DNA from: Kribbella amoyensis
GTDB taxonomy: Bacteria; Actinomycetota; Actinomycetes; Propionibacteriales; Kribbellaceae
NCBI RefSeq assembly: GCF_007828865.1
Contig: NZ_VIVK01000004.1
Span: forward strand, 62,001 to 126,000
DNA length: 64,000 nucleotides
Direction of reading: 5' to 3'
Shown: piece by piece, positions 21,770 through 25,912 of the stretch
Layout of the letters: each line of letters begins with the position of its first letter
How positions within the stretch are numbered: position 1 is the first letter of the stretch
Made by a program: the position numbers and the translations under genes
The notes under the pieces: generated by a model
Seen by the model: the letters and a program-made list of their open reading frames with translations, nothing else
Told to the model about the DNA's origin: nothing
Databases searched by the model: none

Positions 21770-22001
21770 TTCTATGCGCGGCGGTAGGATCCCGGTCACG
21801 CCGGTCGGTCAGGCGGGCGGCCGCGGTCGAGGCGGATTGGTTGGCGGCGGTGAGATCTGGCACAATGTCAGGCTGAGTCCGACTGGACGGTGTGCAGCCC
21901 TCTAACTCCACCCGCCGGCCGGCCCGTTCGAGCCTCACCCGTTGTCCCCACGACGACGTGCTGCTCACCCACCATGTATTTCCGAGGGAGACCCCACAAA
22001 C

Positions 22002-22487
22002 GTGGCAGTCAAGATCCGTTTGAAGCGCATCGGCAAGAAGCGTGCGCCGCACTACCGCATCGTCGTGATGGACGCCCGCACCAAGCGGGACGGTCGCGCG
22101 ATCGAGGAGATCGGGAAGTACAACCCGAAGGCCGAGCCGTCGTTCATCCACGTCGAGTCGGACCGGGCGCAGTACTGGCTGGGCGTCGGCGCGCAGCCGA
22201 CCGAGGCCGTCGAGGCGATCTTCAAGGCCAGCGGTGACTGGCAGAAGTTCAAGGGCCTGGAGGCCCCGGCGCCGCTGCGGGTCAAGGAGCCGAAGCGGGA
22301 CAAGCAGGAGATCTTCAACGAGGCCCTCGCCGAGGCGCACGGCACCCTGAAGACCGAGGCCGTCACCAAGAAGGCCGCGGCGAAGAAGGCCGACAAGAAG
22401 GACGACGCCGCCGAGGCGCCGAAGGCGGACGAGGCTGCCGCCGAGGCGCCGGCCGCGGACGCGCCGGCCGACGACACCAAGGCCTGA
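22002..22487 (+). CDS. rpsP: 30S ribosomal protein S16
   Basis: S16 is an assembly protein of the 30S subunit. The core, [20 protein letters not shown] through [12 protein letters not shown], covers the first 80 or so residues. The rest is an Ala/Lys/Glu/Asp-rich extension typical of actinobacterial S16, giving 161 residues against about 80-90 in short forms. GTG at 22002 is the family start, with GAGGGAG upstream. The gap from 21770 holds the promoter region; a CACAAT near 21867 may be its -10. First gene of the rpsP-khpA-rimM-trmD block. Confidence 0.95.
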
Positions 22488-22489
22488 CC

Positions 22490-22744
22490 ATGATGGAGAC
22501 CGAGGCGCTCGAGCACCTGGTCCGAGGCATCGTGGACAACCCTGACGACGTCAGCGTCCGGTCCCGCAATCTGCGCCGCGGACGCACGCTCGAGGTGCAC
22601 GTGCACCCCGAGGACATCGGCAAGGTGATCGGCCGCAACGGCCGGACGGCGACCGCGCTCCGTACCGTGGTCGGGGCGCTCAGCTCCGAGTCGTCGGTCC
22701 GGATCGACTTCGTCGACGAGCTCAACCGGCGTCCGCGCCGCTGA
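22490..22744 (+). CDS. khpA: KH-domain RNA-binding protein KhpA
   Basis: The 84-residue protein is a single KH domain. The GxxG loop is seen in KVIGRNGRTATALRTVVG. KhpA proteins bind RNA and pair with KhpB/Jag in Gram-positive bacteria. It starts 2 bases after the rpsP stop and lies between rpsP and rimM, its conserved location in actinobacteria and firmicutes. Confidence 0.9.
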   Translation: MMETEALEHLVRGIVDNPDDVSVRSRNLRRGRTLEVHVHPEDIGKVIGRNGRTATALRTVVGALSSESSVRIDFVDELNRRPRR

Positions 22745-22762
22745 GCGGGCAGTACTTCCGGA

Positions 22763-22788
22763 GGGCCGTACCCACTCGGGTGCGGCCC
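22763..22788 (+). terminator. Stem-loop between khpA and rimM
   Basis: An 11-base stem with one mismatch (22763-22773 with 22778-22788) and an ACTC loop is followed by a T-containing stretch. It may terminate or attenuate transcription, separating rpsP-khpA from rimM-trmD expression. Confidence 0.5.
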
Positions 22789-22871
22789 TTCGGCTTATCT
22801 TCGACCTGGTACACCCCGCGACGGGTGGACACCCGCGGTGGCGGGAAGACGCAGCAGAGAGGGACACAGCG

Positions 22872-23420
22872 GTGCTGGTGACCGTCGGCCGGATCGGCCG
22901 GGCACACGGGATCAAGGGCGAGGTCGGGCTGGACGTCCGCACGGACGAGCCGGACCGGCGGTTCGCCGACGGCGCGACCGTCATCACGGACTCGAAGACG
23001 GTGCGGACCCTCACCGTCGCCTCCAGCCGCTGGCACAGCGGGCGGCTGCTGGTGAAGTTCGCCGAGGTCCCCGACCGCACCGCCGCCGAGCAGCTGCGCA
23101 ACCTGGCACTGCAGGCCGAGATCCCCGACGACGAGCGCCCCGAGGACCCGGAGGAGTACTACGACCGGGAGCTGATCGGGCTCACCGTGCGGACCACCGA
23201 CGGGGCCGAGGCCGGTGAGGTGATCGACGTCGTGCACCTGCCGTCCCAGGACCTGCTGGAGATCCGCCGCCCGGCCGGCAACGCGGTCCTGGTCCCGCTG
23301 GTCGAGGAACTGGTCCCGGAGATCGACCTGGCCGCCGGTCACGTCGTCGTCGCGGACCGCCCGGGCCTGCTCGACCCCGAGGGCGCCGAGGTGACACCGA
23401 CCGAGCCGGACGCCGACTGA
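22872..23420 (+). CDS. rimM: Ribosome maturation factor RimM
   Basis: RimM helps maturation of the 30S head and binds S19. The 182-residue protein has the N-terminal beta barrel ([18 protein letters not shown]) and the C-terminal PRC-barrel beginning [17 protein letters not shown] at 22872 follows GAGGGAC. It overlaps the trmD start by one base (TGATG). Confidence 0.93.
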
Positions 23421-24619
23421 TGCGCCTGGACGTCGTCTCGATCTTCCCCGAGTACCTCGCCGCGCTGGACCTGAGTCTGGTCGGCAAGGCGGCGAAGAGC
23501 GGGCTGCTGGACGTCCGCGTGCACGACCTGCGGGACTGGACCTACGACCGGCACCGGACCGTCGACGACACCCCGTACGGCGGTGGCGCCGGCATGGTGA
23601 TGAAGCCGGAACCGTGGGGCGAGGCGCTCGACGCGGTGGCTCCGCCGGACGGTCCCGCGCAACCTCGATTGATCGTTCCCACTCCCGCCGGCCGCCCGTT
23701 CTCGCAGGAGCTGGCGTACGAGCTCGCGGCCGAGCCGTGGCTCGCGTTCGCGTGCGGGCGGTACGAGGGGATCGACGCGCGGGTGGCGGCGTACGCCGGC
23801 GAGCGGATGCGGGTGGACGAGGTGTCCATCGGCGACTACGTGCTGAACGGTGGCGAGGTCGCCGTCCTGGTCATGGTCGAGGCGGTCGCCCGCTTGCTGC
23901 CCGGCGTGATCGGCAACCCGGAGTCCCTGGCCGAGGAGTCCCATTCCGGCGACGGCCTGCTCGAGTACCCGGTGTACACCAAGCCGGCCACGTGGCGCGG
24001 GCACGACGTACCGGACGTGCTGCTCTCCGGGAACCACGGGGTCATCGCGCAATGGCGTCACGAGCAGTCGCTGCACCGGACCGCGGAGCGTCGGCCCGAC
24101 CTGCTGGCCGCGTGGGGAGATGCCGCGGCTCGCAAGGAGGACGCCGCGTCGTTGGTGGACGTGGTGCCCGCGACCGAGGCGGACGCGGGGGAGATCCACG
24201 CGTTGCAGCTGGCCTCGTTCCTGTCCGAGGCGCAGGCGTACGGCGATCTCGGGATCCCGCCGTTGACCGAGGACGTGCCCGCGAGTGTGGAGCGGATCCG
24301 CGCCGGCGGGGTGTGGAAGGCGGTGGCCGGGACCAGGGTGGTCGGGTCCGTCCAGGTGACCGTGGACGGCGCCGTCGCGCGGATCGGCCGGTTGATGGTG
24401 GCGCCGGACTGGCAGGGGCGTGGTCTGGGGGCCAGGCTGCTCCGGTTCGCCGAACAGACGGCGCCCGCCGGCGTCACCGGGTACGAGCTCTTCACCGGGG
24501 CGCTGAGCGAGCGCAACCTGGGGCTGTACACGAAGGCCGGTTACCGAGAGGTGCGACGCGAGCGCCAGACCGACAAGGTGGAGCTGGTGCTGCTCGCGAA
24601 GCGGCGCCGCCGACGCTGA
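23420..24619 (+). CDS. trmD: tRNA (guanine37-N1)-methyltransferase TrmD fused to a C-terminal GNAT acetyltransferase domain
   Basis: TrmD methylates G37 of tRNAs with SAM and prevents +1 frameshifting. Residues 1-240 are the SPOUT knot domain with [36 protein letters not shown] and [14 protein letters not shown] (D178 likely catalytic). Residues 246-399 form a GNAT domain with [27 protein letters not shown] (acetyl-CoA loop) and [13 protein letters not shown]. The frame is continuous with no stop between the domains. Most TrmD proteins are about 240-270 residues. The acetyltransferase substrate is unknown. Confidence 0.9.
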
Positions 24620-24772
24620 TTTCGTCGCGGCCGGGCGATATGGCAAACTTGATCGCTGTTGCCATTCGGTGCTCCTGCCACAGGGGGTGACCACCGTCCG
24701 GCCGCATCCTTTGACCTCTTCACCGCGAGATTCGTGGGTGACCTGTGGCACGCGCGAGAAAGTGAACACCTG

Positions 24773-25132
24773 ATGAGCAACGTCCTGAACGAGCTCGACA
24801 ACGCGAGCAAGCGCGACGACATCCCGACCTTCCGCCCCGGTGACACCGTCAAGGTGCACGTCAAGGTGGTCGAGGGCAACCGGTCCCGCGTCCAGGTGTT
24901 CCAGGGTGTCGTGATCCGGCGCCAGGGTGGCGGCCTGCAGGAGACCTTCACGGTCCGCAAGGTCAGCTTCGGCGTCGGCGTCGAGCGCACCTTCCCGATC
25001 CACACCCCGATCGTCGAGAAGATCGAGATCGTGACCCGCGGTGACGTCCGCCGCGCCAAGCTGTACTACCTGCGCGAGCTGCGCGGCAAGGCAGCCAAGA
25101 TCAAGGAGAAGCGGGACGTCCCGGCCTCCTGA
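24773..25132 (+). CDS. rplS: 50S ribosomal protein L19
   Basis: The 119-residue protein matches L19 throughout ([54 protein letters not shown]). L19 sits at the interface of 50S and 30S. ATG at 24773 gives the family N-terminus MSNVLNELD. The 153-base gap before it may carry its promoter (a possible TATGGC at 24640-24645). Confidence 0.96.
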
Positions 25133-25159
25133 GCGCCTTCTCAACGACGACGGTCAGGT

Positions 25160-25912
25160 ATGGCGCCGAGTTCTGCGACTCGGGCTCGCCCGGTAGCCAG
25201 GAGGGCACGTCGCAGCGGTCGTACCAAAGGGCGGCACCGCAGGCTCAAGCAGCGTAATCCGCTGGCGAGCCTGCTGATCGAGATGACCACGGTGACAGTG
25301 CTCGCCCTGGTCATCACGGTCGTCCTGCGGCTCTTGGTCGCCGAGGCGTTCTACGTTCCCTCGGAGTCGATGTACGACACCCTGACGACCAACGACCGGA
25401 TCCTGGCCGAGAAGGTCAGCTATCTGCACCGGGACGTCGATCGGGGCGACATCGTCGTCTTCAAGGACCCCGGCCACTGGCTGAACGAGGAACAGCAGAC
25501 CCCCGGCCCGGTCCGCCGGCTGGGGGAGTTCGTCGGCATCCTGCCGCGCAGCGGTGAGGGTCACCTGGTCAAGCGGGTGATCGGGATCGGTGGCGACCGG
25601 GTGATCTGTTGCGACCGCTCCGGGCGCATCATGGTGAACAAGATCCCGCTGGACGAGCAGGAGTACCTGCTGACGGACGCCAAACCGTCGCTCCAGCCGT
25701 TCGACGTCGTGGTTCCGCCCGGCCACCTCTGGGTGATGGGCGACAACCGGGCCGAGTCGGCCGACTCCCGGGCGCACATGGGCGGCCCCGGGGGCGGATT
25801 CGTGCCGGTGGACAACGTCGTTGGCCGGGCCTGTTGCGTAATCTGGCCGTCTGACCGGATGACGATGTTGCGTCCTCCGGAAACTTTCAAGAAGCCGGGG
25901 CTGAAGAAGTGA
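25160..25912 (+). CDS. lepB: Signal peptidase I (first of a tandem pair)
   Basis: The 250-residue membrane protease removes Sec/Tat signal peptides outside the membrane. A basic N-terminus is followed by one transmembrane helix (about 36-60). The nucleophile is Ser70 (FYVPSESMYDTL) and the general base Lys138 (HLVKRVIGIGGD). GDNRAESADSR is box E. It overlaps the second copy by GTGA. Actinobacteria often have several type I signal peptidases in this location between rplS and rnhB. Confidence 0.92.
   Translation: MAPSSATRARPVARRARRSGRTKGRHRRLKQRNPLASLLIEMTTVTVLALVITVVLRLLVAEAFYVPSESMYDTLTTNDRILAEKVSYLHRDVDRGDIVVFKDPGHWLNEEQQTPGPVRRLGEFVGILPRSGEGHLVKRVIGIGGDRVICCDRSGRIMVNKIPLDEQEYLLTDAKPSLQPFDVVVPPGHLWVMGDNRAESADSRAHMGGPGGGFVPVDNVVGRACCVIWPSDRMTMLRPPETFKKPGLKK

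Follow-up and report, generated by a model that had tools for sequence, protein, structure and literature searches.

A lineage-conserved fusion of the tRNA methyltransferase TrmD to a GNAT domain in Kribbella and related actinobacteria

The trmD locus of the soil actinobacterium Kribbella amoyensis encodes a protein in which an N-terminal TrmD domain is followed, after a short linker, by a C-terminal GNAT domain. TrmD, a tRNA m1G37 methyltransferase of the SPOUT family, is usually a single-domain protein and has been studied as an antibacterial target. We analyzed the fusion gene within a 64,000-nucleotide stretch of the genome (contig NZ_VIVK01000004.1, positions 62,001 to 126,000), referred to here as the window, and collect the features of the locus in window coordinates (Table 1). 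The gene order is the usual one and is common to ordinary trmD genes, with rimM upstream and rplS downstream, and the start codon of the fusion gene overlaps the rimM stop codon (TGATG). An earlier note on this DNA had described an unbroken frame running through a full TrmD and a full GNAT domain. That description proved accurate: its coordinates are exact and both domains score above the cut-offs of their profiles.

Table 1. Genes and domains at the trmD locus of the window.
Feature	Position	Strand	Basis or remark
84-aa ORF between rpsP and rimM, probably a KH RNA-binding gene	22490..22744	+	by eye, from sequence and gene order
rimM	22872..23420	+	PF01782 and PF24986; overlaps trmD start
trmD-GNAT fusion gene, 399 aa, ATG to TGA	23420..24619	+	single frame without stop
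TrmD domain, aa 1-229	23420..24106	+	NF000648 match; sole PF01746 match in genome
Linker, aa 230-246	24107..24157	+	begins directly after RRPDLL, end of TrmD fold
GNAT domain, aa 247-395	24158..24604	+	Pfam, structure models, residue conservation; QGRGLG aa 332-337, Asn366, Tyr370
rplS (ribosomal protein L19), next gene after trmD-GNAT	24773..25132	+	PF01245 (query from 24776); start ATG 24773 read from sequence

The interval between the fusion gene and rplS contains a conserved leader-like element (window 24674-24759) of the form CCTGCCACAGGGGG...GACCTGTGGCAC-CGCGAG, with an 8-bp perfect complement. A loose pattern of this element matched 59 of 73 loci and 0 of 1291 random control segments, a strict pattern matched 48 of the 73, and a narrower pattern with a shorter gap matched 4 of 244 loci. 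Rfam gave no match in window 22000-25200, and the fold of the element is no more stable than that of its shuffles (z +0.32). The element may be an L19 autoregulatory leader. The available portion of PMC7247131 names L19 leaders in Firmicutes and Flavobacteria and none in actinobacteria.

The N-terminal half of the fusion protein matches TrmD along its entire length. NCBIfam NF000648 aligns to aa 1-229 over model positions 1-221 of 221 (305.7 bits; cut-off 220), TIGR00088 scores 243.9 bits (cut-off 195), PF01746 covers aa 22-226 (213.2 bits; cut-off 27.3), and the TrmD structures 6w14, 7rey and 6nvr align as whole domains over aa 1-229 at 296-302 bits. Because the genome holds no second PF01746 match, this half presumably does TrmD's job, m1G37 methylation, and would be the cell's only tRNA m1G37 methyltransferase. 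The protein carries Glu173 (in EESH, aa 172-175, window 23933-23944) where the five closest TrmDs in the PDB have Asp, and we take the catalytic acidic residue of TrmD to be Asp169 of the E. coli enzyme, within EDSF. A catalytic change peculiar to fused TrmDs was considered and rejected, since Glu occupies the catalytic site in 61 of 61 fused TrmDs and also in 25 of 28 single TrmDs of the sampled set. Glu at TrmD position 169 gives activity equal to that of Asp, according to the available portion of PMC8643618.

The C-terminal half is recognized as a GNAT domain by PF13508 at aa 297-377 (43.6 bits; cut-off 27) and by PF00583 and PF13673, which are also above cut-off; the three Pfam models together cover aa 294-390. 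AlphaFold prediction of this domain alone gave a mean pLDDT of 96.3, and in the single-chain model of the whole protein, block means for aa 251-390 are 91-97. In the same model the mean pLDDT of aa 231-240, within the linker, is 55, parts of TrmD fall to 37-49, and the pTM is 0.46. The low confidence of the linker and the low pTM are consistent with two domains on a loose tether.

GNAT enzymes share a Q/R-x-x-G-x-G/A acetyl-CoA loop and a catalytic-type Tyr. The window protein has both, in the form of Q332-G-R-G-L-G337 and Tyr370, and the GxG/A loop and Tyr370 are jointly retained in 90 of 95 TrmD-fused GNAT copies. The five exceptions concern the loop in L043 and L176 and the Tyr in L074, L075 and L129, the last two being one genome. 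Two fusions of group f36, L074 and L075, have lost Tyr370 together with the TG/Asn signature but retain the acetyl-CoA loop. In L073, TG and Asn are missing and the Tyr is retained. Given the loss of Tyr370 in two f36 genomes (L074 and L075/L129), the GNAT domain there may not be an enzyme.

RimI can be rejected as an identity for the domain, since TIGR01575 scores 22.5 bits on the whole protein and 24.4 on the GNAT alone against a cut-off of 86.4. Another gene of the same genome is the stronger RimI candidate, at 84.8 bits, just below that cut-off. The 50 matches listed from a fold search with the GNAT domain have Z 18.3-21.1, and nearly all of them are named as acetyltransferases or GNATs. 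The N-terminal acetyltransferases RimI and Ard1/NAA share the fold (Z 18-20) and tie in Z with small-molecule GNATs, which makes fold comparison uninformative about substrate. By E-value, the best Foldseek match is SbzI (8zt3/8zt4), a GNAT N-acyltransferase of altemicidin biosynthesis, at 24-27% identity; many other GNATs tie with SbzI in Z. Its acyl donor is a carrier protein, according to the available portion of PMC6331615.

In the sampled set, single-domain actinobacterial TrmDs have a short tail beyond RRPDLL, where the fusion instead has its GNAT domain. A second enzyme domain at the TrmD C-terminus is likewise found in the TrmD-Tm1570 fusion of Calditerrivibrio nitroreducens (PF01746-PF09936), as described in the available portion of PMC11187310, though its partner is a second knotted SPOUT methyltransferase whereas the Kribbella partner is a GNAT. 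A Pfam search of the window protein up to E 0.1 did not list PF09936, nor did it list PF03358 (FMN_red).

The earlier note had proposed a search for the same fusion in related genomes. All 38 Kribbella genomes, the window's own and G074 among them, carry a stop-free fused frame, as do some further genera; across the 37 other Kribbella genomes the fusion proteins are 77-89% identical to the window protein. On these grounds we reject an assembly error, and also the sequencing error joining two genes that the note had named as a possible refutation. An AAGGAGG Shine-Dalgarno-like site precedes TTG245/GTG246 within the linker (window 24134-24157) and could provide an internal start. Such a site occurs in only 1 of 30 same-genus genes checked, that of the window, so separate translation of the GNAT domain is not a conserved feature.

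In the order as a whole, Kribbella included, at least 97 of 196 sampled genomes have a single match reaching residue 376 or beyond, a lower bound since matches weaker than E 7.5e-103 were left out, except for G073 and G192. The window's family accounts for 38 of these, from all 38 of its sampled genomes; g6 (a Nocardioides-type genus) contributes 45 of 46, g12 5 of 5, g17 1 of 2, g2 4 of 7, and g16 and g19 2 of 2 each. One g6 genome counted as fused, G075, has a TGA within its match, and G073 of g2 is a further case, with a two-piece match extending to residue 351. All 8 genomes of f4 are unfused, as are the listed matches of g3 and g15, and G117, G192, G045 and G161 have a TrmD without GNAT despite relatives with the fusion. 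The class sample (296 genomes) contains the fusion in 5 of 5 f36 genomes; in the phylum sample (296 genomes), 3 among the matches listed, from f1 and f36, extend through the GNAT. Named records with the fusion include Ornithinimicrobium, Phycicoccus, Marmoricola, an Intrasporangium bin and a Dermatophilaceae bin. The group labels probably correspond to Propionibacteriaceae (f2), Streptosporangiaceae (f20), Streptomyces (f22), and Dermatophilaceae and kin (f36). Among the matches listed in the order, class and phylum samples, most TrmDs are single-domain, in agreement with the earlier note. The TrmD-GNAT fusion is thus real and lineage-conserved.

The GNAT domain is under purifying selection within the genus. 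Across 435 pairs of 30 Kribbella genes, the median dN/dS (Nei-Gojobori) is 0.26 for the GNAT and 0.084 for TrmD, and the GNAT value is below 0.5 in 434 of the 435 pairs, with a maximum of 0.53. Outside the genus, the values of 0.70 for the GNAT and 0.40 for TrmD (465 pairs) are saturated and support nothing.

The GNAT belongs to a subfamily that also occurs with another partner or alone. Of 160 subfamily copies, which include a few repeats of the same genome trimmed differently (L075/L129, L062/L184 and L064/L215), 95 are joined to TrmD, 13 to an FMN reductase (PF03358), and 52 to neither, a class defined by these two partners only as having no TrmD and no FMN reductase in frame upstream. The best 80 of 278 named loci by GNAT profile divide into 40 TrmD-fused, 5 FMN-reductase-fused and 35 with neither in frame. 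The N-terminal FMN-reductase domain was identified by Pfam in 7 scanned proteins (L093, L094, L095, L099, L100, L101 and L104), by eye in L103 and L105, and by tblastn in the rest. Fusions of this kind, with the GNAT at the C-terminus, occur in Kribbella itself and in f4. One such plasmid gene (record NZ_CP108139) has the product name bifunctional NAD(P)H-dependent oxidoreductase/GNAT; proteins of this kind, including Kribbella L093, L094 and L095, carry a GNAT of the same subfamily that is 46-48% identical to the window GNAT, on an N-terminal part that is an FMN reductase and not a TrmD. More distant GNAT relatives, all below 60% identity, are found in 24 plasmid-collection records (9 Rhodococcus, one 11.85-Mb Nonomuraea record); among phages, 1 of 50,697 records contains a relative, at 44% identity.

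Ten residues of the GNAT (D255, E258, R306, R324, P329, D330, T359, G360, S363 and Y370 in the numbering of the window protein) are each 85-100% conserved in all three partner classes. We read this as one ancestral active site retained whatever the partner. The occurrence of the same residues in all three settings makes a TrmD-specific substrate less likely, and at the level of sequence it argues for one partner-independent chemistry and against an acetylase specific to tRNA or L19.

Some stand-alone relatives have neighbors suggestive of translation. Of the 12 f20 genomes that match at E 1e-20, 11 (L120, L121, L122, L125, L126, L130 and L223-L227) have a stand-alone GNAT flanked by rpsA (ribosomal protein S1) and coaE (dephospho-CoA kinase). 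In the twelfth (L131/L234), coaE is close by and an rpsA-like end lies about 3.5 kb away, a form shared by a Nonomuraea gerenzanensis record. These rpsA/coaE-neighbor copies are members of the GNAT group nearer to Kribbella. Neither rpsA nor coaE is found at 45 of 52 stand-alone loci of one set or at 12 more of another, and two f22 stand-alone copies lie downstream of a glycerophosphodiester phosphodiesterase gene, with an ORF of about 170 aa between. The tie of rpsA/coaE neighborhoods to translation thus holds in one family, f20.

Phylogenetic analyses bear on how often the two domains were joined. In a GNAT tree of 130 of the 160 rows, TrmD-fused copies fall in two groups: a 41-row set (SH-aLRT 98) that places Kribbella and some f2 fused copies with stand-alone GNATs, and an 89-row set (SH-aLRT 98) that places Nocardioides, f36 and other f2 fused copies on the side of the FMN-reductase fusions. 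Forcing the fused GNATs into a single clade costs 20.4 log-likelihood units and is not rejected (p-AU 0.234; 98 of 130 rows). In a quick TrmD tree of 67 rows (all 89 less 22 of the 30 same-genus ones), a single clade of fused genes is rejected (p-AU 3.7e-70), a result compatible either with several gains or with a gain accompanied by losses and transfer. The simplest reading is that GNAT was joined to TrmD two or more times; the alternative is one joining followed by losses and transfers. In both tree groups the GNAT is attached to TrmD at the same point, and two joinings there, if such they were, could point to some connection with the substrate or location of TrmD.

The earlier note had also suggested that the GNAT might be a merged operon neighbor. 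As a source of the domain this found no support, because tblastn and a fused-GNAT profile identified no GNAT near trmD in any of 28 unfused loci, each spanning about 6 kb; the outcome that it implied, an independent enzyme joined to TrmD, is the best-fitting of the note's three ideas. In L044 the next gene encodes an ammonium transporter, and the translation of L087, read by eye, shows the same.

We conclude that this is a genuine bifunctional protein, a single chain that most likely combines two enzymes working independently. The explanation that we lean towards, and consider reasonably probable, combines the cell's sole TrmD with an independently working N-acetyltransferase whose kind of substrate would be shared with its stand-alone and FMN-reductase-fused relatives, the two being joined mainly for co-expression. 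The TrmD half would be tethered by a short, probably flexible linker to a GNAT that uses acetyl-CoA and belongs to a subfamily widespread in actinobacteria, and this GNAT would act on its own on a small amine or peptide. The join would mainly couple GNAT expression to the ribosomal operon and leave TrmD's job unchanged. Activity of both halves, a partner-independent substrate and co-expression as the benefit are the parts of this explanation that we infer.

It is possible, though less likely, that the GNAT acetylates a component of translation such as tRNA or L19, as the earlier note had envisaged. In this rather unlikely reading, TrmD would bring the GNAT to tRNA or the ribosome, where it would acetylate a tRNA base, aminoacyl-tRNA, L19, S1 or a ribosomal N-terminus. 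Such a role would suit a gene that sits between rimM and rplS and the appearance of TrmD-fused GNATs in two tree groups, but the family residues are the same when the GNAT is alone or on an FMN reductase, and some lineages have a TrmD lacking the GNAT or a GNAT lacking Tyr370. The f20 copies between rpsA and coaE would also suit it, yet most stand-alone loci lack both neighbors. The fold matches include RimI (2cnm, Z 19.9) and Ard1 (4pv6, Z 20.3), which tie with many other GNATs, while the RimI profile score is far under its cut-off and the genome has its better RimI candidate elsewhere. We regard as quite improbable the further proposal that an action of the GNAT on the translation apparatus is the reason for two or more joinings to TrmD at one and the same point. 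The protein would then write both m1G37 and an acetyl mark, the latter on tRNA or on the ribosome, and the rpsA-side stand-alone copies would do the same in trans.

It is also distinctly unlikely that the GNAT is now a structural or regulatory domain, sensing acetyl-CoA to tune TrmD or acting as a stabilizing extension, with no acetyltransferase activity. Its faster evolution relative to TrmD and the f36 copies that have lost Tyr370 and retained the acetyl-CoA loop would be expected of such a domain, but nearly all fused copies keep both loop and Tyr, and their residues match those of free-standing copies. A passenger without function, joined in frame by chance and simply tolerated, might explain why many close relatives have a TrmD without GNAT and why constraint is weaker than on TrmD; the low median dN/dS and conserved motif across the whole genus, together with retention in several families, make it very improbable. 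Least credible of all, despite the Shine-Dalgarno-like site in the window's gene, is an assembly or sequencing error or the production of two proteins from one frame by internal initiation, given a fused frame throughout the genus and an internal start in a single gene.

Searches of open-licence PMC papers turned up no publication on a TrmD-GNAT fusion, and the available portions of PMC12255305, PMC11187310, PMC1829167, PMC1282579 and PMC4033218 do not mention one. A lineage whose only TrmD bears a conserved second enzyme offers a natural test of a link between acetylation and tRNA methylation. If the substrate of the GNAT is a tRNA or a ribosomal protein, actinobacteria would have a modification that is new; with a free metabolite as substrate, the fusion would clearly exemplify a promiscuous module that has settled on a core gene of translation.
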